From the IMG/VR virus record IMGVR_UViG_3300025647_000251, positions 1 to 24,781 of that record: a stretch of 24,781 nt of DNA. The stretch is one strand, 5' to 3'. Of this stretch, positions 6,277 to 23,163 are shown piece by piece; position 1 is the first letter of the stretch; each line of letters begins with the position of its first letter. The position numbers and the translations under genes are program-made. The notes under the pieces are model-generated. The model was not told the DNA's origin, made no database searches, and worked only from the letters and a program-made list of their open reading frames with translations. Source of the stretch: a virus.

Positions 6277-6564
6277 TCAATTAGAGCCGAGGCACTCTTT
6301 TAATTGATCATAACCACCAATGTTGATGGCATCAATATCCTTCATGCGAAGGAAGTTCTTTGCCGTCTCAGATCTTGCACCTGAGCGGCAATAGAGAAGA
6401 TACTTACCGAAGGAGTCTAGGCGTGCAAGATCTTCAGGTGCGCAGTGAATCGCTCCAGGAAAATGCCCATGGTAGAATTCGTGAGCGGTGCGAACATCTA
6501 CTATCGTCCACCCCTGCTCTTCTACCATTTGCTTCAGAATCTTGCATTGTTGCTTGTCTATCAT
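6277..6564 (-). CDS. Single-domain rhodanese (sulfane-sulfur transferase)
   Basis: The 95-residue product is a complete single rhodanese domain. It has the WTIVDVRTAHEFYHGHFPGAIH opening (residues 19-40), the active-site loop CRSGARS with the catalytic Cys at 59, and the closing INIGGY. The loop is the type seen in GlpE and sulfurtransferases that hand sulfane sulfur to other proteins. No signal peptide is seen, so it is cytoplasmic. Its ATG overlaps the dsrA stop (ATGA), so the two are translated together. In sulfur oxidisers a rhodanese-TusA-DsrE relay feeds sulfur to DsrC and DsrAB. Pairing it with dsrA suggests the same route, although tRNA thiolation or general persulfide handling cannot be excluded. 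Confidence 0.9.
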   Translation of the reverse strand: MIDKQQCKILKQMVEEQGWTIVDVRTAHEFYHGHFPGAIHCAPEDLARLDSFGKYLLYCRSGARSETAKNFLRMKDIDAINIGGYDQLKECLGSN

Positions 6565-7895
6565 CCAGCCTTACGCTCAAACCATTTGGCTGCTTCTTGA
6601 TCCCAACCGTCTGTTCTTACATAAGACGACTGGCGTGGTTCACTAACCATATTTGGATCAACATCCAAACCAACACCCTCCAAGAAATTAACAAGACCGA
6701 TACGCTCGATCATCTCACCAGTACGCTCATGCTCCAGTGCATTCTCAGCAAAGAAGTCTAGCGTTTCTTGTGCTAGATCAGCGAGTGCTTCGTAATCCTC
6801 TTCAGTATTTAGTTCCATGAACGGAACAACCACTGTACCCATTGAATCTCCAATCTTTAGGGTGCGCTTACCACCAACAAGAATGGTGACACCACGATCA
6901 TCCCCAGGAGCCAGAATCGGATCGCCTCCGAGACCGACATACTTCTCGGAAAGTGGAGAAGTTGCATTAAGGCAATGCATGCAGCGTACGCAACTGCTGT
7001 TGTCAACAGTAAGTCCATTGTCGTCCCCCAAACTCATTGCTTGTGTTGGGCAGCGAGATACAATGTTTTCCATTACATACTTGCGACCCTTATCTTCAAC
7101 CATTGCTTTCCAAGCGTCCTGATTGATTTTAATATCATCACGCCAAGTACCAATCACTGCGAAGTCAGAACGGTGTACTGCATTCATACAGTCATTTGGA
7201 CAACCAGACACCTTGACCTTAAACTTGTAAGGCAACGCTGGACGGTGCATGTCATCGAGGAACTGATTAACGAGAAGACGGTGTGCTTTTGCTTCATTAT
7301 GCAAACTCATTTCGCAACGAGCACCACCTACGCAAGACATACCAGTACGAACGGCAGGACCAGCACCACCAAGATCAAAACCAATTTCATTTAGTTCGTT
7401 GAAGATCTGTTGAACATGCTTAGTGTCTGCGCCTTGCATCATGATGTCGCCAGACTGACCATGGAATGCGATCAGACCAGATCCACCATTTGCTTCAAAG
7501 GTATCAACCAACTGACGCATCATCTTAGATGTATAGTGATTACCTGCTGGTGGTTGAACACGCAGCGTATGGAATTCAACAGCGTCAGGATACATGTAAG
7601 AACCATCAGAGTTCTTTAGTTCGGTGAAACGAGGAATGATGCCGCCACCATAACCAACGACACCAACGGTCCCACCCTTCCAGTAACCCTTTCGTGTTAC
7701 ATATGACTGTTCAAGGGTGCCGACAACACCTTTCGCCATTGCAGCACCTTCATGGGATCCCTGAGCGAGACGTTTAAGTCCTGAAACGAACGATGGCCAA
7801 GGACCACGCTCTAGTTCGTCAAGGTTTGGGGTTGCAATATCATTGACTTCTGGACGATTGATATTGAGTTTGGTATAACCTGAATTGTCAGCCAT
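6561..7895 (-). CDS. dsrA: Dissimilatory (probably reverse) sulfite reductase alpha subunit DsrA
   Basis: The protein is full length (444 residues) and keeps all cofactor ligands: C188 and C194 (CVGGARC), C232 and C236 (GCPNDC) for the siroheme-[4Fe-4S] site, and C282, C302, C305 and C308 (RCPTQ, CVRCMHC) in the inserted ferredoxin domain. The opening LDELERGPWPSFV and the end WDQEAAKWFERK are family signatures. DsrA pairs with DsrB in an alpha2beta2 enzyme. In sulfur oxidisers it runs backward and releases sulfite from sulfur carried on DsrC. No dsrB lies nearby, so the phage subunit must assemble with host DsrB. AGGAG five bases before the ATG supports the start. The oxidative direction is inferred from context, not read from residues. 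Confidence 0.95.
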   Translation of the reverse strand: MADNSGYTKLNINRPEVNDIATPNLDELERGPWPSFVSGLKRLAQGSHEGAAMAKGVVGTLEQSYVTRKGYWKGGTVGVVGYGGGIIPRFTELKNSDGSYMYPDAVEFHTLRVQPPAGNHYTSKMMRQLVDTFEANGGSGLIAFHGQSGDIMMQGADTKHVQQIFNELNEIGFDLGGAGPAVRTGMSCVGGARCEMSLHNEAKAHRLLVNQFLDDMHRPALPYKFKVKVSGCPNDCMNAVHRSDFAVIGTWRDDIKINQDAWKAMVEDKGRKYVMENIVSRCPTQAMSLGDDNGLTVDNSSCVRCMHCLNATSPLSEKYVGLGGDPILAPGDDRGVTILVGGKRTLKIGDSMGTVVVPFMELNTEEDYEALADLAQETLDFFAENALEHERTGEMIERIGLVNFLEGVGLDVDPNMVSEPRQSSYVRTDGWDQEAAKWFERKAG

Positions 7896-8967: not shown

Positions 8968-9387
8968 TTAGTTTTCAAACCCTTGACCGTCTCTTAACTT
9001 TCTAAGTGTCTCAAGTTCTTCTTGTAGTTTGAGCACTTCCAGTCTTTTCTTTCTCAACTCAAGTTCGTACAATGAGTTGCAGTTGATGCGTTCTTTTGGT
9101 GCATCAAGTGGTATGATAATTCTTGCATACACACCGATGTCCTTTGTTGTATCTACATTTGGATTGCTGCTACCAAATGGACTTTGATAGTTGTCCACGA
9201 TACCAGTCATTCCAATCTCGAAGTTCGTTGCACCACCGATAGCGTTCTTACAGTCCAGACCGTCACTTGTACGAATACTGTCTTGACCATATGTTGTGCC
9301 AGCAGATGGCAACTGCAAATTAAGTGAGTTGCTGTCTGCATATGCAGCGGCACTAAAGCACATTAACACAAACCAAAGTTTCTTCAT
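8968..9387 (-). CDS. Exported protein of unknown function
   Basis: A clear signal peptide (MKKLWFVLMCFSAAAYADS, cleavage probably after AYA) precedes about 120 residues. The first two thirds look like beta strands with two cysteines (LDCKNAIGG, INCNSLYEL). The last 40 residues form an amphipathic, probably coiled-coil helix (LRKKRLEVLKLQEELETLRK). It resembles exported proteins I recall from other T4-like marine phages, but I cannot name a family. It is one of six consecutive genes whose products are exported or anchored in the envelope. Confidence 0.78.
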   Translation of the reverse strand: MKKLWFVLMCFSAAAYADSNSLNLQLPSAGTTYGQDSIRTSDGLDCKNAIGGATNFEIGMTGIVDNYQSPFGSSNPNVDTTKDIGVYARIIIPLDAPKERINCNSLYELELRKKRLEVLKLQEELETLRKLRDGQGFEN

Positions 9388-9394
9388 ACTTTAC

Positions 9395-9766
9395 TCACTT
9401 AAACTTCGAACATATTCTAGAGGATACTGCCGTTTTGGTAGAATCTTCTTTTCTTAATTTTGATTTAGAGCAAATATAAGTTGCTCTGTTCTTATCAGCA
9501 GCACGAATATAGATGTCAAACTTTACATGTCCAAGATACTGCAGTTGAACAATCTTGTACGATGAGACAAATGGAATTGGTTTCCATTCATTATCAAAGA
9601 CTCCAATTTCGTACCATTCAACATCCTTTCGTTTGTTAAACATCTCCATGGTTGTCTTATAAATCCCACTCACATGAGACGATTCCAACTCAGGATAGGT
9701 TGGTGTCATCTCATGTGCAACCGCAGTACCAAACGCCATCATCAAAATCATAATGTATTTTTTCAT
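9395..9766 (-). CDS. Exported beta-rich protein, unknown function
   Basis: The 123-residue precursor starts with a signal peptide (MKKYIMILMMAFGTAVAHE, probable cleavage after AVA). The mature part alternates hydrophobic and polar residues (WYEIGVFDNEWKPIPFV, HVKFDIYIRAADKNRATYIC) and has two cysteines near the C-terminus that could form a disulfide. The FDIYIRAADKNRATYICSKSK block is faintly like the conserved strand of periplasmic pilus chaperones, but no clear family match can be claimed. It lies eight bases from the next gene, consistent with one transcript. Confidence 0.75.
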   Translation of the reverse strand: MKKYIMILMMAFGTAVAHEMTPTYPELESSHVSGIYKTTMEMFNKRKDVEWYEIGVFDNEWKPIPFVSSYKIVQLQYLGHVKFDIYIRAADKNRATYICSKSKLRKEDSTKTAVSSRICSKFK

Positions 9767-9775
9767 AGTGAACCT

Positions 9776-10279
9776 TTATTGTGCGATACACTCCGCAACA
9801 ACCATTGCTGTGTATGAGCCACCTGGGAATGCTTTAGAACCACCCATCGTTGCAACAGATTCAGTAGTGAACCATGTGGAACCAGTAGCAGTCAGATCAT
9901 ACTTGTCAGTCATGCCATATTCAACTTTGTCGGTTTCATACGAACCCATGTTTGCAGCGTCGGAAACGGCAGACACTTCGGTGTCACCTGTCCAAGTTAC
10001 AACATCAGGAAGGGATGGACTGGTTGAAAATGCTTCTGGAGCAGTGATTACTGCATAGTATGCATCCGCCAGAGTTACATCAAAACGAACGATAGGCTGT
10101 ACGCCACCATCTGCAGCAGCAGTAGTCAGTGTGTAAGCATTAGGGTTGCCATAAACACCTGGAGTATCAGTTGAGATCACGCAGCGTGACTGAACCTCAC
10201 CGTTGATTGGCACATTCTCAGCATATGCGCCAAAGGATGCGACACCCATAGCAGCAATAAGCATTGTTTTCTTGAACAT
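9776..10279 (-). CDS. Exported pilin-like beta-sandwich protein
   Basis: The 167-residue precursor has a signal peptide (MFKKTMLIAAMGVASFGAYAE, cleavage after AYA). The mature chain opens VPINGEVQSRCVI and ends YTAMVVAECIAQ; the two cysteines could link the first and last regions. The composition is rich in T, S, A, V and G with many short strands, like fimbrial subunits or spore-coat-U-type secreted proteins. No transmembrane anchor is present. GGAG eight bases before the ATG supports the start. Whether it decorates the virion, remodels the host surface or is released is unknown. Confidence 0.72.
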   Translation of the reverse strand: MFKKTMLIAAMGVASFGAYAENVPINGEVQSRCVISTDTPGVYGNPNAYTLTTAAADGGVQPIVRFDVTLADAYYAVITAPEAFSTSPSLPDVVTWTGDTEVSAVSDAANMGSYETDKVEYGMTDKYDLTATGSTWFTTESVATMGGSKAFPGGSYTAMVVAECIAQ

Positions 10280-10315: not shown

Positions 10316-11227
10316 TTATCTATTATATTGCTGATCAATCATGCGGTCATGCAATATTTGCGAGGACATATTCATCCTACGACCTTGTTTGTTGTCTTGG
10401 AGTTGTCCTCCATCCAACACAATTGTTTCTTTATACTGCCCGCCATCAATTGTAGCGGCAGTATATGATTCCATATTTACAGCAGCGTTCATTGACTGAA
10501 GCATTGACGCTTGAGCAAATGATTGAGCAAACAAAGCAGTGTTGTCAACAGCGGCGAGTGCTTTTTCTAAACGCTCTTTGCTATCCTTTTCTTCTTCTGT
10601 TTCGTCTATCTCTTTCTCTTCTTTATTCTCGTATGTAACAGAATCGCACTTAACATCAGTGCTACCTTCTCTACACGCCTCAGCAATTTTCGCATCACTG
10701 TCAGTTGCATCATACAAACTATCAACATCCACAACTGGAATGTCTGGAATGTATGGCTCATACCCAGGACAGTTCGGATCAAACTGCGGATCATAACAAG
10801 GATCTACTCTATAACTGTAGATCACACTTGGATCCGTAACCGAACCGTTGCCCTCAACCTCAATCGAACCATCCCCCCAATATGATCTATGAATGTTTGG
10901 CAAACCAATTACTTTATTGATCTCAGTGCCACCCAATGACCCAGGACGCCATTCGTCCGTTTCTCTAAAGATGTATCCAGTTCCTAATGCATTTTCATTC
11001 TGCACATGGACTGTGACACTATCTTGTACTTGCTTTTGTATTGTATAGTTGTACAATACTGCATTCACCTCCAGCCCAGGAGGATCTGGGAACACGTTAT
11101 CCATGCTCCAACCCAAACCGTTGGAAGCGGCATTGCCTGTGTATCCGTAGTAAGGTGAAATGCTCTCAGAATAAGAGGAGCAAGGCACCAAGACCACCGA
11201 TACCATAAGTAGCAGCTTCTTCAACAT
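10316..11227 (-). CDS. Large exported protein with acidic helical middle, unknown function
   Basis: The 303-residue precursor starts MLKKLLLMVSVVLVPCSSYSES, a signal peptide. The N-terminal 130 residues look beta-rich. A Cys/Pro segment (DPCYDPQFDPNCPGYEPYIPDIP) follows, then a strongly acidic and lysine-rich helix around residues 200-220. The C-terminal region is rich in Met, Gln and Ala, with AAVNMESYTAATIDGGQY and RRMNMSSQILHDRM. The start codon lies 62 bases inside the upstream gene; the next Met would cut the signal peptide, so the overlap seems real. I recall similar proteins in marine T4-like phages but know of no assigned role. Confidence 0.72.
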   Translation of the reverse strand: MLKKLLLMVSVVLVPCSSYSESISPYYGYTGNAASNGLGWSMDNVFPDPPGLEVNAVLYNYTIQKQVQDSVTVHVQNENALGTGYIFRETDEWRPGSLGGTEINKVIGLPNIHRSYWGDGSIEVEGNGSVTDPSVIYSYRVDPCYDPQFDPNCPGYEPYIPDIPVVDVDSLYDATDSDAKIAEACREGSTDVKCDSVTYENKEEKEIDETEEEKDSKERLEKALAAVDNTALFAQSFAQASMLQSMNAAVNMESYTAATIDGGQYKETIVLDGGQLQDNKQGRRMNMSSQILHDRMIDQQYNR

Positions 11228-11708
11228 TTACTTTATCCGATTCTTCTAATTCTTTTCTAGTTGTTTCAACATGGGATTCCCACGCCAACTTCGCTTCCTC
11301 GCCAATCTTACCTTCATATGGGCAAGGAGTGCCAGCCATTCTCATACCTTCAAACACTGCTTTGTCCTGACACATAATGGACACTGCTGCAACTTTCATT
11401 CCCATATCGTACAGCGTCTTTGCTTTCTTGAGTCGAACGCAGTTCTCCTCTGTAAAGGTTGTACCAGCACTGATGCCAAGAATCTGTGTCTGTACTGCAC
11501 CAGCAACACCAACAGTACACAAGTCGCTGTTACTGCCTGCACTAAACTGGGGGGAGATTGCTGAAGGAGGAGGCTGCTTGATGGTGGTTTCCATACTGCC
11601 TCTTGTAGTGATATTACTATCAGCAGTGGATTCAGTTACAATGGGATCAACCGCATAAACTGATGCGGACAGAGTGAGTCCCAGCAATAAAGCGAATAAT
11701 CTTGACAT
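11166..11708 (-). CDS. Exported protein with conserved Cys motifs, unknown function
   Basis: The 180-residue precursor has a signal peptide (MSRLFALLLGLTLSASVYAVD, cleavage after VYA). The conserved core contains SDLCTVGVAGAVQTQILGIS, CVRLKKAKTLYDMGMKVAAVS and MAGTPCPYEGKIG with four spaced cysteines. The C-terminus (YGIGGLGALLLLF) is hydrophobic and could insert in a membrane. From memory this family is widespread in T4-like marine myoviruses without known function. It is the first gene behind the late promoter at 11734-11741, so the exported-protein operon is probably expressed late. Confidence 0.78.
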   Translation of the reverse strand: MSRLFALLLGLTLSASVYAVDPIVTESTADSNITTRGSMETTIKQPPPSAISPQFSAGSNSDLCTVGVAGAVQTQILGISAGTTFTEENCVRLKKAKTLYDMGMKVAAVSIMCQDKAVFEGMRMAGTPCPYEGKIGEEAKLAWESHVETTRKELEESDKVNVEEAATYGIGGLGALLLLF

Positions 11709-11810: not shown

Positions 11811-11850
11811 CATTTACATGCCATTTTGGCACTGGAGGTCTATACAGAAG

Positions 11851-12132
11851 ATGGAAGCAAAGATGTGGAACGCATCAGGTTGGATTGAAATTGGCACTTC
11901 AACCGATGCAGATATCGAATTCAAGTTCAATGATCTATTGAGAGATTCAGGATTTACTGTACTGAATTTTGTTGATCATGTATTTGAACCTTTTGGCTGG
12001 ACTGCGCTCTGGCTGTTGGGAGAATCTCACTTTGCGATTCATACATTCCCAGAAGAGAACAAGTATTATTGGGAACTGAGTTCGTGTATCGAAGATAAGT
12101 ACAACCTGTTCATGGAACATCTGGAGTATTGA
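11851..12132 (+). CDS. S-adenosylmethionine decarboxylase-like protein (short SpeD)
   Basis: The 93-residue product contains LLGESHFAIHTFPE, the hallmark of bacterial SpeD. In the family, Ser of ESH (S59 here) becomes the pyruvoyl cofactor after self-cleavage between Glu and Ser. FNDLLRDSGFTVLNFVDHVFEP before it and WELSSC after it (C79 at the spacing of the catalytic Cys) fit the same fold. SpeD supplies decarboxylated AdoMet for spermidine synthesis. The protein is shorter than the usual 110-130 residues, lacking part of the first strand. The start is uncertain: GGAGG lies 12 bases before the ATG at 11851, and ATGs at 11818 and 11863 are alternatives. Some SpeD relatives have become ornithine or arginine decarboxylases, so the substrate is open. 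Confidence 0.75.
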   Translation: MEAKMWNASGWIEIGTSTDADIEFKFNDLLRDSGFTVLNFVDHVFEPFGWTALWLLGESHFAIHTFPEENKYYWELSSCIEDKYNLFMEHLEY

Positions 12133-12133
12133 T

Positions 12134-12499
12134 ATGGCATACGAATACTGGGGATACCATCTGATGATGGACTGTTCAAAGGGTGTCGTAACGCTGGTGC
12201 GTGACGAGGCAAACATTCGTGCGTTCGCCAAAGAATTGGTCGAAGCAATTGATATGAAAGCATGGGGCGAACCTGTTGTAGAACATTTCGCTACACATAA
12301 TCCAGATGCTGCTGGTTATAGTTTGCTTCAGTTGATCGAGACAAGTAACATCGCTGGTCACTTTGTTGACAAGAACGGCGACTTCTATCTAGATATCTTT
12401 AGTTGTAAACCATATGATGTTGAGATTGCGAAGTCTGTGGTTGAAAAATACTTTCAACCGATGAAGATAAAAACAACCTACATTGAACGACAGGCATAA
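12134..12499 (+). CDS. Second SpeD-like protein with variant active-site motif
   Basis: The 121-residue protein starts one base after the previous stop, with GGAG seven bases before its ATG. WGYHLMMDC at the N-terminus, FAKELVEAIDMKAWGEP, and IETSNIAGHFVDKNGDFYLDIFSC match the SpeD fold. Where SpeD has ESH this protein has ETSN (E69, T70, S71), so the pyruvoyl-forming Ser may be shifted by one residue. C91 is present, but the distance from Glu to Cys is one residue longer. I recall similar proteins annotated as AdoMet decarboxylase in marine T4-like phages. It could be an active variant, a neofunctionalised decarboxylase or a regulatory partner of the first copy. Confidence 0.72.
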   Translation: MAYEYWGYHLMMDCSKGVVTLVRDEANIRAFAKELVEAIDMKAWGEPVVEHFATHNPDAAGYSLLQLIETSNIAGHFVDKNGDFYLDIFSCKPYDVEIAKSVVEKYFQPMKIKTTYIERQA

Positions 12500-12544: not shown

Positions 12545-13498
12545 TTACTGAATTTTCTTCATCATCTTATCAGCCATATCTGCAGTCAGTGGCACATAAC
12601 CATCTTTCTCAACAATATGCTGCCCCTCTTTTGAAAGAACCATACGAATAAACTCATATGTCATCTTGTCAAGTGGCTTGTTAGGTGCTTTGTTGACATA
12701 GATGTACAGGAAACGACTAAGAGGATATTTGCCATTCAGTGCATTCTCTGGAGTTGCTGGAATAAACGCATCGCCTTCTTTCTTAGCAAGTGGCACTGCC
12801 TTTACGCCAGAAGTCTGATAACCCATACCCGAGTAACCGATACCATTCACAGAAGAAGTAACAGACTGAACCACAGACGCAGAACCTGGCTGTTCATTCA
12901 CGCTGTTCTTGTAGTCACCCTTACACAACCCCTTCTTCTTGAAGTAACCATAAGTGCCTGATACAGAGTTACGACCATACAACTGAATTGTTTTATCAGC
13001 GAATGCGCCAGTTACACCTACATCACCCCATGTCTTAGCATCTTTATCATAACCACACTTTCTTGTGCTTGAGAAAATCGCATCAACCTGTGGAATGGTC
13101 AATCCCTCAACAGGGTTGTCTTTGCTGACAAATACTGCCAACGCATCAATAGCAACAGGAATAGCAGTTGGTTTATATCCATACTTTGCCTCAAATGCTT
13201 GTAGTTCTTTATCCTTCATTTTACGAGACATTGGTCCAACATTAGAAGTGCCTTCTGTCAACGCAGGTGGTGCAGTAGAGGAACCTGCTGCTTGAATACC
13301 AACATTTACATTAGGATATTGCTTACGAAACTCTTCTGCCCAGAAGGTCATTAGATTTGCGAGAGTGTCAGAACCAACTGAGTTGAGATTACCAGAAACA
13401 CCAGATACTTTGTTATAAGAAGGAAGTTCAGCAGCGTTAGCTGAAACAGCATAGGCAGCAACCATTGCGATTGCACCAAGAAAGTTTTTTAAATCCAT
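12545..13498 (-). CDS. pstS: Phosphate ABC transporter substrate-binding protein PstS
   Basis: The 317-residue precursor has a signal peptide (cleavage near ANAAE, residues 20-24). The mature protein shows the PstS phosphate-binding signatures: [14 protein letters not shown] near residue 41, [11 protein letters not shown] near 70, [10 protein letters not shown], and [16 protein letters not shown] near 175. It binds phosphate in the periplasm for the host PstCAB transporter; no transporter genes accompany it. pstS is a known phage-carried gene in cyanophages, where host PhoB controls it. The tandem 11-bp repeats upstream suggest the same here. GGAG lies seven bases before the ATG. A terminator-like hairpin lies in its leader. 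Confidence 0.93.
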
Positions 13499-13664: not shown

Positions 13665-14504
13665 TTAGAATGCCATGTTCAGACCAACCATAGTGGTTGA
13701 ATCTGCGCCAGCAGCATCATTGTCGCTGTAGTTGACATAAGCAGCTACATTCTTAGAGAAGTTGTGAGCAACTTCAACAACATAAGTGTCAACACCATTT
13801 TCGATAGTTTCATAACCACCAGTCAGAGTGTTGTTGCCACCGATAGAAGTTGAACCAACAACGGTGTAAGTATCTACACCAGCGTCAGAACGCTCAGCAG
13901 TTGCACCAAGATTAAACTCACCAACAGAACCAGAGGCAGCAATTGCCTTAGTTACCGCATCAGTGGTCTTGTTCTTGCTGTAGTATGCAGTGACGGCAGC
14001 TGGACCAACATCGATGCCACCAGCGACTTCGTATGCGTCCATCTTATCTTCGCCTGCGTTGTCAGCAATTACTGAACCAGCAACACGAACAACACCAACT
14101 TCACCCATAACGGCAACGGCAGAATCTACACGACCAGCGTTGTCGGAAGTGAAAGAAGTACCATGGAAGGCATCAACAGTGTCAGAAACCTGAGACTTCT
14201 CAAGATTCTTAAAACGACCTGCCTGAACAGTAACACCAGACATGGACAGACCTACATACTGATCACGAGCAGTTGCAGTTGAACCAGTTTCAGTGCCCAG
14301 ATCCATGGACAATACTGCGAATGCAGAAGCACCGTTACCGAGATCTTCTACTGCCTTAACACCAAAGTAGTTGTCATCACCATTTACATTCCAAGCACTA
14401 TTGGTGCTTTCCAAACGCTGCTCAACATTACCGAACAGGGTAACATCAGCTTGAGCAGACATAGCAGCAGCGAGTACTGCGGTTGCAAGAATAGTTTTCT
14501 TCAT
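13665..14504 (-). CDS. Gram-negative outer-membrane porin
   Basis: The 279-residue precursor has a signal peptide (MKKTILATAVLAAAMSAQAD) and begins the mature chain with DVTLFGNVEQRLES, the usual first strand of proteobacterial trimeric porins. Alternating hydrophobic strands continue to a C-terminal Phe (TTMVGLNMAF), which the outer-membrane assembly machine recognises. FGVKAVEDLGNGASAFAVLS is the conserved second-third strand region. The chain is shorter than the usual 300-370 residues, so some loops are reduced. Phage-carried porins are rare; the lambdoid Lc porin is a known case. Next to pstS it may widen the path for phosphate, or change the receptors available to other phages. No promoter is visible between it and the hairpin 21 bases upstream. 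Confidence 0.88.
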   Translation of the reverse strand: MKKTILATAVLAAAMSAQADVTLFGNVEQRLESTNSAWNVNGDDNYFGVKAVEDLGNGASAFAVLSMDLGTETGSTATARDQYVGLSMSGVTVQAGRFKNLEKSQVSDTVDAFHGTSFTSDNAGRVDSAVAVMGEVGVVRVAGSVIADNAGEDKMDAYEVAGGIDVGPAAVTAYYSKNKTTDAVTKAIAASGSVGEFNLGATAERSDAGVDTYTVVGSTSIGGNNTLTGGYETIENGVDTYVVEVAHNFSKNVAAYVNYSDNDAAGADSTTMVGLNMAF

Positions 14505-14524: not shown

Positions 14525-14559
14525 AAAAAACTCCGCCCACCCCCATGGTGAACGGAGTT
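14525..14559 (-). terminator. Terminator after the sulfur-globule-like gene
   Basis: AACTCCG (14529-14535) and CGGAGTT (14553-14559) form the outer stem, with an inner CACC/GGTG stem. On the - strand four further U follow the stem. It stands 21 bases before the porin ATG, with no room for a promoter after it, so porin mRNA must come from read-through. Confidence 0.75.
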
Positions 14560-14573
14560 GTATTGGTTACTTC

Positions 14574-14852
14574 TTACTGTGCGTGGTAAGGTGCATAACC
14601 ATAGTATGGCTGACGATAACCATTACCGTACAGACCATTGTCACCAGCGAAGTGAGAGGTGCCGTCCATCTTAGCGGAACCTTCAGCATTAATTGCGATG
14701 CTGAACTTACCAGTGCCAGAGGCATTACCGTTACCAAAGCCAGCAGCTGTAGTATCGGTGTAGCCATTTACATTGCTGTCACCATCATTGCCATAAAAAG
14801 CGAAAGATGAAGTTGAAGCAAGGATAGCTGCGATTGCGATAGTCTTTTTCAT
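14574..14852 (-). CDS. Probable sulfur-globule protein (Sgp/CV1-like), exported
   Basis: The 92-residue precursor has a signal peptide (MKKTIAIAAILASTSSFAFYG, cleavage after SFA). The mature part of about 74 residues is rich in Gly, Asn, Tyr and Ala: a disordered start (FYGNDGDSNVNGYTD), a short strand-forming middle (GTGKFSIAINAEGSAKMDG) and a Gly/Tyr tail (GLYGNGYRQPYYGYAPYHAQ). There are no cysteines. Size, signal peptide, Gly/Asn/Tyr bias and the YYGYAPY end match the small envelope proteins of periplasmic sulfur globules in purple and SUP05-type sulfur oxidisers. This is pattern recognition; a low-complexity phage surface peptide is the alternative. The dsrA and rhodanese genes in the same phage support the sulfur reading. 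AGGAG eight bases before the ATG fixes the start. Confidence 0.55.
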   Translation of the reverse strand: MKKTIAIAAILASTSSFAFYGNDGDSNVNGYTDTTAAGFGNGNASGTGKFSIAINAEGSAKMDGTSHFAGDNGLYGNGYRQPYYGYAPYHAQ

Positions 14853-14928
14853 AAGATTTCTCCTGTATTTAGTGAATAAAAAAAGTCAAGTAGTAAAAAT
14901 CAAACGAACCGTTGTACAAACGATACGC

Positions 14929-15033
14929 TCAAAGAACTTCCCCAAGAAAATTTACAAGCGTTACAACATACATTACAGCACCGATTACAAACACTGTTAG
15001 ATGTCCTGGGTATTTGCAAACTTGTTTTAGCAT
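14929..15033 (-). CDS. 34-residue membrane peptide
   Basis: The frame reads MLKQVCKYPGHL and then one hydrophobic helix (TVFVIGAVMYVVTLVNFL) ending GEVL. AGGA lies nine bases before the ATG. It is the first frame behind the promoter at 15102-15130 and lies upstream of the sulfur-globule candidate on the same strand. The clean signal-anchor layout argues for a real gene; the small size keeps confidence moderate. Function unknown. Confidence 0.55.
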   Translation of the reverse strand: MLKQVCKYPGHLTVFVIGAVMYVVTLVNFLGEVL

Positions 15034-15060
15034 ATAACTAAATCCTTATATTTACATCCT

Positions 15061-15084
15061 AAGAAAAGGGGAATCGCTTCCCCT
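15061..15084 (-). terminator. Terminator-shaped hairpin just after a promoter
   Basis: On the - strand AGGGGAA (15078-15084) and TTCCCCT (15067-15073) close a GCGA loop, followed by UUUCUU. The start site of the promoter at 15102-15130 should be about 15095, only some ten bases upstream. Either it stops read-through from the nuclease gene and also this promoter's transcript, or it is a regulated leader element. Confidence 0.75.
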
Positions 15085-15101
15085 ATCTCATCATACATTG
15101 T

Positions 15102-15130
15102 ATTATACTAAATGCTTGAATAAAAGTCAA
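15102..15130 (-). promoter_or_regulatory. Sigma70 promoter of the sulfur-globule unit
   Basis: TTGACT (15125-15130), a 17-base spacer and TATAAT (15102-15107) on the - strand. An inverted repeat (GCTTGA at 15114-15119 with TCAAGC at 15127-15132) spans the -35 and spacer and could act as an operator or, on the + strand with its seven T, as a terminator for stray transcription. Confidence 0.8.
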
Positions 15131-15216
15131 GCGTTTTTTTCTTATTTCATTCTTTTTTTCGTTTTCGCCTGAAATACGCTACTTTCTAGATTCTTTTTAT
15201 TCTATCGTAAAGTATT

Positions 15217-21896: not shown

Positions 21897-21928
21897 AAGT
21901 TCAAGTCTTGACAACAAGACTTTTGTGT

Positions 21929-22000
21929 CTCCCTGCGAGGATTTGAACCTCGGACACATGCTCCCAAAGCATGGATGTTACCAGACTACACCACAGAGAG
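21929..22000 (-). tRNA. tRNA-Pro (anticodon UGG)
   Basis: Acceptor stem CTCTCTG with CAGGGAG (one G-U), anticodon arm CATGC-TTTGGGA-GCATG with UGG, and T arm CGAGG-TTCAAAT-CCTCG. CCA is not encoded, unlike the other three tRNA genes in the window. 72 bases. Confidence 0.92.
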
Positions 22001-22010
22001 ATATTTTTTT

Positions 22011-22559
22011 TCAAGAGGAATTAGAATTCCAATCTACAATTAAGTGTATTCTATTTTCTGAAGATTCATTACGAACGCTATGTACAGCAGAATTGTTTAT
22101 CTCAACAATTTCGCCTGTTTGTATATTTTTTTCTTCATTATCTACAACAAATATTACATTGTTGTTTGTCAAAATTGGTATATGTATTCTGTTATTTGAC
22201 AGAAGACTTTCTCCAGAGTCAGCGTGACTTAATATTGAAGAATTAGGATTTAAGTTTGAAAATAAAATTCTAACAAAATATCCCTCTCCATTGTAAAACG
22301 CATTTAATATTTTCTTTAGTTCTAAGAAAAACTCTTCATTATAATACGAATCAAAAAAACTTGTTTTTGGCGCAACAATATTTCTATTTGCAATTAAAGA
22401 ATCTTTTGACCAAAGAATAGGAATTACACTAGTGTTGACATGTTGCTCATATTCATAATTTCTTCTTTTGGTATATATGTTTTCCCAATCGTTTTTATGC
22501 GAAAACAAATTTTGATAATATGAAACATCAATGTTGCCAATAAAGTTGTAGTTTTTCAT
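22011..22559 (-). CDS. 2-oxoglutarate/Fe(II) dioxygenase-like (aspartyl hydroxylase-type) protein
   Basis: The 182-residue protein has SHADSGESLLSNNRIHIPIL near residues 113-132 and VEINNSAVHSVRNESSENRIHLIVDW at the C-terminus. This is the His-x-Asp ... His ... Arg-Ile-His layout of aspartyl/asparaginyl beta-hydroxylase-like enzymes (H114, D116, distal His, Arg for 2-oxoglutarate). Target unknown: perhaps a virion or host protein. It is markedly A/T-rich and sits alone between two tRNA genes, so it may be recently acquired cargo. No clear Shine-Dalgarno precedes its ATG. Confidence 0.75.
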   Translation of the reverse strand: MKNYNFIGNIDVSYYQNLFSHKNDWENIYTKRRNYEYEQHVNTSVIPILWSKDSLIANRNIVAPKTSFFDSYYNEEFFLELKKILNAFYNGEGYFVRILFSNLNPNSSILSHADSGESLLSNNRIHIPILTNNNVIFVVDNEEKNIQTGEIVEINNSAVHSVRNESSENRIHLIVDWNSNSS

Positions 22560-22579
22560 TATTGTTTCTTTATTTAATT

Positions 22580-22655
22580 TGGTGCCGACAGAGAGACTCG
22601 AACTCCCAACCTACTGCTTACAAGGCAGTTGCACTACCAATTGTGCTATGTCGGC
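22580..22655 (-). tRNA. tRNA-Thr (anticodon UGU)
   Basis: Acceptor GCCGACA with TGTCGGC, anticodon arm ACTGC-CTTGTAA-GCAGT with UGU, T arm GGGAG-TTCGAGT-CTCTC (one G-U), then A and encoded CCA. 76 bases. Confidence 0.95.
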
Positions 22656-22661
22656 AAATTC

Positions 22662-22901
22662 TTAAACTTCTCTTGATGGATTATATACTGCTGCCAACGA
22701 AAGTTCTTCAACAAATTTCTTTTGGTCTTCAATATAGGCAAGCAATCTTTTAATAAACATATCTGCTCTTGGATCAACCAGAACTTCTTCTACTTTGCCA
22801 TGAGAATAAACCCCAGTTGGATCGTCATAATCTGTATAAAACCCACCGCAATCCATAGCGCAATTCGGTTTCTGCAACTCTTTTAATTCTTCATTAATCA
22901 T
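22662..22901 (-). CDS. 79-residue protein, unknown function
   Basis: Reads MINEELKELQKPNCAMDCGGFYTDYDD, with a Cys-x3-Cys pair, then VLVDPRADMFIKRLLAYIEDQKKFVEEL, a helical half. The ATG overlaps the upstream stop (ATGA), and the stop lies six bases before tRNA-Thr. No family recognised. Confidence 0.68.
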   Translation of the reverse strand: MINEELKELQKPNCAMDCGGFYTDYDDPTGVYSHGKVEEVLVDPRADMFIKRLLAYIEDQKKFVEELSLAAVYNPSREV

Positions 22902-22990
22902 AGTCCGATAATCCTTAAAAATGCGTTTCCAATAATCACACCCAGAGCAATAATTATAACCTTTCTCGCATCAATCGTCAATCGTTTCAT
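22898..22990 (-). CDS. 30-residue membrane peptide
   Basis: Reads MKRLTIDARKVIIIALGVIIGN and ends AFLRIIGL: a basic start and one hydrophobic helix. AAGGA lies before the ATG, and the stop overlaps the next start (ATGA). The same DNA contains a promoter-like TTGACG-17-TATAAT, so the frame might be fortuitous; the ribosome-binding site and coupling favour a real gene. Confidence 0.5.
   Translation of the reverse strand: MKRLTIDARKVIIIALGVIIGNAFLRIIGL
22953..22981 (-). promoter_or_regulatory. Sigma70-like promoter inside the 30-residue gene
   Basis: TTGACG (22976-22981), 17 bases, TATAAT (22953-22958) on the - strand. It could drive the 79-residue gene, tRNA-Thr and the dioxygenase-like gene. 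Confidence 0.65.
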
Positions 22991-23010
22991 AACATCCTTG
23001 TTATTATAAT

Positions 23011-23084
23011 TGGCGCAGCGACAAGGAATCGAACCTCAACTTGTGGTTTTGGAGACCACCGTCATGCCATTAGACCATCGCTAC
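23011..23084 (-). tRNA. tRNA-Trp (anticodon CCA)
   Basis: Acceptor GTAGCGA with TCGCTGC (one U-G), anticodon arm GTGGT-CTCCAAA-ACCAC with CCA, T loop TTCGATT, discriminator G and encoded CCA. 74 bases. Confidence 0.93.
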
Positions 23085-23087
23085 AAC

Positions 23088-23163
23088 TGGTGCCCTCGGC
23101 TGGACTCGAACCAGCAACCTACAGCTTAGAAGGCTGTTGCACTATCCATTGTGCTACGAGGAC
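23088..23163 (-). tRNA. tRNA-Arg (anticodon UCU)
   Basis: Acceptor GTCCTCG with CGAGGGC (one U-G), anticodon arm ACAGC-CTTCTAA-GCTGT with UCU, T arm GCTGG-TTCGAGT-CCAGC, discriminator A and encoded CCA. It reads AGA codons, frequent in A/T-rich phage genes. Only three bases separate it from tRNA-Trp. Confidence 0.95.

Follow-up and report, generated by a model that had tools for sequence, protein, structure and literature searches.

The gene at positions 14574-14852 of a 24.8-kb virus record quite probably encodes a phage version of a sulfur globule envelope protein (SGP), which would be exported, deposited on sulfur globules, and serve to maintain sulfur storage. The record, called here the window over its entire length, carries T4-type genes for a DNA end protector, tail tube, baseplate hub, single-strand DNA-binding protein, PhoH, and exonuclease. 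The gene lies in a genuine phage genome, is a homologue of a host storage gene, and, as judged from the dN/dS of its relatives, belongs to a family under selection, as is expected of a phage auxiliary metabolic gene. The same phage also encodes DsrA, the alpha subunit of dissimilatory sulfite reductase (6561-7895, minus strand; TIGR02064, 2.6e-154, 514 bits), and an adjoining rhodanese-domain protein (6277-6564, minus strand; PF00581, 5.4e-12), both of which had been named in the original prediction.

Reading Frame, Protein and Expression Signals

The open reading frame check recovered the frame exactly where it had been predicted and placed it on the minus strand (14852-14574), which the prediction had left out. 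Its product of 92 aa reads MKKTIAIAAILASTSSFA/FYGNDG...GYRQPYYGYAPYHAQ, with the slash at the end of the putative signal peptide. By inspection, the N-terminus consists of MKK, a hydrophobic stretch, and SFA/F, consistent with a Sec-type signal peptide of approximately residues 1-18 with an AXA-type end (SFA). The mature part of about 74 aa has the C-terminal end QPYYGYAPYHAQ and contains 20% G, 12% A, 11% Y, 11% N, and 16% F+Y+W, with no Cys, so that composition and predicted signal peptide agree with the earlier description of an exported, Cys-free, Gly/Asn/Tyr-rich protein of this size. Absence of Cys is a property of all 31 SGPs compared. Only two Pro (3%) are present in the mature protein, and a short QPYYGYAPY tail is the sole trace of Gly-Tyr-Pro repeats; regularly spaced prolines and repetitive Gly-Tyr-Pro stretches were not found in it, nor were the Trp-rich start (AWWG), high Pro content, and long GYAPYG repeats of classical SGPs. 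Structure prediction, which had been proposed as a check, was run and gave a mean pLDDT of 40 with no confident fold.

The gene is preceded by a non-coding region of approximately 360 nt (14853-15216, minus strand), in which a Shine-Dalgarno-like AGGAG, the likely ribosome-binding site, is located about 10 nt 5' of the ATG. Further upstream are a sigma70-like box (15130-15102) and, between the box and the gene, a terminator-like hairpin (15084-15067), while the phage late-promoter motif CTAAATAC was tested and not found to be enriched upstream of the gene. Directly 3' of the stop codon is an intrinsic terminator (14536-14556, minus strand, 14556-14536) composed of a hairpin and a T tail (-21.2 kcal/mol, z -3.36).

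Directly downstream of the SGP gene is a porin gene (Porin_4; 13665-14504, minus strand; PF13609, 1.3e-19), followed in the same block of exported cargo by a PstS-type phosphate-binding protein (12545-13498, minus strand; TIGR02136, 4e-85). The porin and PstS genes each have their own terminator-like hairpin (12524-12503 for PstS), and the arrangement of the three genes resembles that of cargo ("moron") genes. The best cellular match of the porin among 369 gammaproteobacterial genomes was only about 32% identical.

Homology to Sulfur Globule Proteins

The Pfam match of the window protein was to PF17228 (sulfur globule protein), with an E value of 1.9e-4. Its score of 22.6 bits falls short of the gathering cut-off of 26.7 bits and was treated only as a lead because such sequences are of low complexity. 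Since it falls below the Pfam cut-off and has none of the Pro-rich and Trp-rich classical features, the protein is classified by these comparisons as a divergent homologue of the PF17228 family, not as a curated member. It probably works like an SGP. That its likeness to SGPs might reflect nothing but a shared amino acid composition (Gly/Asn/Tyr-rich with a signal peptide) is highly improbable. The sub-threshold score would fit such a reading, as would the weak false matches that biased composition gives to other models. However, none of 2000 shuffled mature sequences reached the score of the window protein when the HMM was built from 18 cellular SGPs, and none of 5000 did so with an HMM built from 12 other viral SGPs, where the window protein scored 49.4 bits and the shuffles at most 13.1. 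Likewise, none of ten shuffles of the window protein matched PF17228. The order-specific identity to its closest viral relative, P0002, including the QPYYGYAPY tail, argues against composition as well, and so do profile searches between viral and bacterial SGPs, in which recovery worked in both directions. A profile built only from viral SGPs retrieved bacterial SGPs with E values to 1.6e-14, and 20 of its 26 matched genomes were PF17228-positive (55 positive among 369). On the strength of shuffles and reciprocal searches, composition as the sole explanation is largely refuted, and the similarity to SGPs is, at the level of these sequences, order-dependent and in excess of composition.

The profile search recommended with the original prediction thus pointed to homology with SGPs of dsrA-bearing bacteria, with the window score itself under the Pfam cut-off. 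The matches were SGPs of dsrA-bearing bacteria and of viruses carrying dsr/tus genes, and the outcome named beforehand as refuting, in which the best matches would all be unrelated exported proteins of low complexity from phages with non-sulfur hosts, was not seen. Relatives surfaced only via dsrA neighbors and profiles. A PDB sequence search with the window protein gave a best E of 0.47, tblastn found no match at E 1 in GenBank phages and only noise in plasmids, and a search of phages with P0002 returned no relatives; peptide patterns taken from the window protein alone and scanned against viral contigs, or taken from viral SGPs and scanned against genome contigs, also returned nothing. Real SGPs matched the TrAA12 model with E values down to 6.5e-5; these weak matches were judged to be low-complexity artefacts and a TrAA12 identity was rejected.

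Viral Relatives and Their Gene Neighborhoods

In total, 18 SGP-bearing viral contigs were identified, about 17 besides the window: L003/L010, L009, L011, L012, 12 more obtained when viral contigs were searched with an alignment of bacterial SGPs, and L122, found with a DNA pattern for the SGP tail. Another pattern match, in an unrelated virus (L119), had no SGP reading frame at the match and was dropped. The L003 virus, whose DsrA is 90% identical to that of the window, encodes P0002, whose 156 aa comprise two SGP units and which matches the window protein with 46% identity across 84 aa. With 33.3 bits against PF17228, P0002 exceeds the cut-off, as do P0003 (34.2 bits) and the SGPs of L122-L127 and L131 (30.6-55.4 bits); altogether nine of the viral copies scanned lie above it. 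Genes for PhoH, exonuclease, topoisomerase, DNA ligase, tail sheath, and terminase neighbor the SGP genes of the relatives and mark T4-like phages, and the SGP of L131 is located on a contig of 147.6 kb.

The viral SGPs comprise at least three types. One of them (L128, L132-L134) shares 64-78% identity over about 80-90 residues with the bacterial type of genomes G308 and G192, whereas the identity of the window copy to the closest bacterial sequence is about 40%. This pattern suggests repeated capture from hosts. Among the relatives, four viral SGP pairs, the window copy excluded, gave dN/dS values of 0.06-0.25, which indicates that the viral relatives are kept as functional proteins.

The gene neighborhoods repeatedly include sulfur metabolism. 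L009 and L011 share one arrangement, in which the SGP is followed by a small exported protein, TusA, and DsrC, while L126 and L127 carry a canonical DsrC, and L123 a shorter DsrC-like protein, near the SGP. One SGP-bearing relative, L003, also has dsrA. In L127, the SGP is followed by an ammonium transporter, DsrC, a phosphate-binding-type protein, and then homologues of two exported proteins of unknown function of the window, at 11166-11708 (minus strand, 68% identity) and 10316-11227 (minus strand, 59%). The L127 phosphate-binding protein gave no BLASTP alignment with the window PstS and has only the kind of gene in common with it. A porin follows the SGP in L133 and L134, in the same order as in the window and with 36% and 38% identity to the window porin. 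An SGP gene also adjoins a gene of the DsrC/TusE family in one bacterial genome, G308. The original proposal of a sulfur globule envelope protein is thus supported by profiles, relatives above the cut-off, two-way recovery, dsr/tus neighborhoods, and purifying selection.

Two further observations concern these contigs. The ammonium transporter of L127 (1861-3012; Pfam, 1.8e-88) is present in a viral contig together with SGP and DsrC, and behind dsrA and rhodanese in L003 (11592-12627) an IscU-like and two IscA/HesB-like Fe-S assembly proteins can be read from the sequence.

Cellular Sulfur Globule Proteins and the Host

When two genome lists were compared by reading, dsrA was found in 49 of the 55 carriers of PF17228 and in 118 of the 369 gammaproteobacterial genomes overall (Fisher p 9e-22, with genome relatedness ignored). 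PF17228 thus tracks sulfur oxidation, and together with the phage dsrA this places the family with the rDsr sulfur-oxidation pathway. Cellular SGPs contain 16-36% G, 8-25% F+Y+W, and no Cys; Pro makes up 7-14% of PF17228-positive cellular SGPs and 2-5% of the G308 type. SGP-type paralogues of the dsrA-bearing genomes G308, G192, and G407 (L067 1501-1824, L069 1501-1818, and L071 1420-1758) are below the PF17228 cut-off or unmatched, and one branch of the family therefore escapes this model.

The closest cellular matches of the window DsrA (72-74%) are in Thioglobaceae-type genomes, which makes Thioglobaceae the likeliest host as judged by this protein. However, PF17228 was detected in none of 83 Thioglobaceae genomes, so either the host belongs to another group, or the phage SGP acts in a host with unrelated globule proteins of its own, or the phage DsrA and SGP have separate sources. 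SGP-like Thioglobaceae matches to a wider profile (A2) covered almost only the signal peptide and were not counted. The window PstS shares 69% identity with its counterpart in G226, a genome with both SGP and dsrA. Separately, a small Asn/Gly/Tyr-rich exported protein, AFWNN...YGYNPYDFWDPRWY.., was seen in Thioglobaceae genomes (L100 1282-1626, L101 3-257, and L109 1495-1887). It had no Pfam match in L100 and L109, and the SUP05 group may have in it a globule protein not yet described.

Proposed Role and Alternative Explanations

The sulfur globules of Allochromatium vinosum are periplasmic, with an envelope of SgpA, SgpB, and SgpC (PMC10386293). Loss of both SgpB and SgpC leaves the cells without inclusions and without oxidation of sulfide and thiosulfate (PMC10386293); therefore, SGPs matter for the pathway. 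The stored sulfur is then oxidized by way of rDsr, and phage DsrA and DsrC have been proposed to enhance this step (PMC8190135). From the homology, spread, gene context, and purifying selection of this reading frame we infer export, globule binding, and a benefit to the phage. The gene, which has a ribosome-binding site and a terminator to itself, would be expressed after infection, and its product would pass into the periplasm and settle on the host sulfur globules as SgpA/B/C do in Allochromatium. Because host gene expression is probably shut down by a T4-like phage, an envelope protein supplied by the phage would keep sulfur storage working or enlarge the store. Meanwhile, the phage DsrA in the window, or DsrC and TusA in the relatives, may speed the burning of stored sulfur, and the sulfur feeding a phage-boosted rDsr oxidation would stay stored and usable.

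A different outcome of the same homology is conceivable, namely that a shortened, Trp-less coat protein shrinks or opens the globules so that sulfur is released faster to DsrA/C. Two marks of classical SGPs, the Trp-rich start and the long GYAPYG tail, are missing from the window copy and several other viral copies, the phages also encode a sulfur-consuming step (dsrA, dsrC), and A. vinosum without SgpC forms much smaller globules, coat composition thus altering globule size (PMC10386293). However, the nearest cellular relatives of the window SGP (the G342, G230, and G308 types) depart from classical SGPs in the same direction, so these changes are not phage-specific, and we consider such remodeling unlikely. 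Even less probable is a low-complexity exported protein with another task in the envelope, such as surface masking, partnership with the porin, or superinfection exclusion, and with no role at globules. Homology is no proof of retained function, and the location in an exported block with porin and PstS, together with the recurring SGP-porin order in L133 and L134, is compatible with such a task; the repeated position of viral copies beside dsrC and tusA speaks against it, as does the existence of at least three viral SGP types, some with 71-78% identity to bacterial ones across about 80 residues, which would be expected from repeated capture of a useful host function. A globule envelope protein that maintains storage is thus the reading we prefer, and it is likely that phages of sulfur oxidizers have repeatedly captured globule-envelope genes and use them to control the host sulfur granule during infection.

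Comparison with Known Systems

The window protein resembles A. vinosum SgpA/SgpB/SgpC (PF17228) in being small, exported, Cys-free, and Gly/aromatic-rich, with an aromatic mature N-terminus and profile homology, and that family occurs in dsrA-bearing sulfur oxidizers. It differs in being phage-encoded, shorter, without Trp, with few Pro, below the Pfam cut-off, and only a putative globule binder. The nearest bacterial relatives of the viral copies are the SGPs of G342 and G230 (above the cut-off) and of G308, G192, and G407 (below it), which have the same size, the same start (MKK-I-AIAAI...A/F), a central F-S-M/I-x-I/F...G motif, and the PYY tail, but are chromosomal, with several paralogues per genome, and about 33-44% identical to the window copy. 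Sulfur auxiliary genes previously described in phages of sulfur oxidizers (dsrA, dsrC/tusE, soxYZ, soxC, and soxD; Kieft et al. 2021, PMC8190135) act in the same pathway and often occur in the same genomes as viral SGPs. They encode enzymes or sulfur carriers, whereas the window SGP homologue, which is absent from PMC8190135, would be a structural protein of a storage granule. In the open-access literature searched, phage dsrA, dsrC, and sox are reported but no paper names phage genomes as SGP carriers, in keeping with the earlier statement that no phage sulfur globule protein had been described.

If the proposed role is correct, these genes would represent an auxiliary class aimed at an intracellular storage inclusion, not an enzyme, and often paired with dsrA, dsrC, or tusA to burn the store. 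Oxidation is the step targeted by the phage sulfur genes described to date; with a globule protein, viruses would be managing the energy store on which those enzymes draw as well. The idea that sulfur phages make use of elemental sulfur in storage could thereby be put to a direct test. The gene is compact and testable, because sgp mutants of A. vinosum and mCherry fusions are available, and it would provide extra markers for surveys of sulfur phages, in which an SGP gene would be called hypothetical.

Other Features of the Window

At least eight genes with apparent signal peptides are located on the minus strand between 8968 and 14852 (8968-9387, 9395-9766, 9776-10279, 10316-11227, 11166-11708, PstS, porin, and SGP), which is unusually many for a T4-like phage. 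Inside the cargo block, on the opposite (plus) strand, there are two adjacent S-adenosylmethionine-decarboxylase-like genes (11818-12499). Four tRNA genes (Pro, Thr, Trp, and Arg) are found at 21927-23163.
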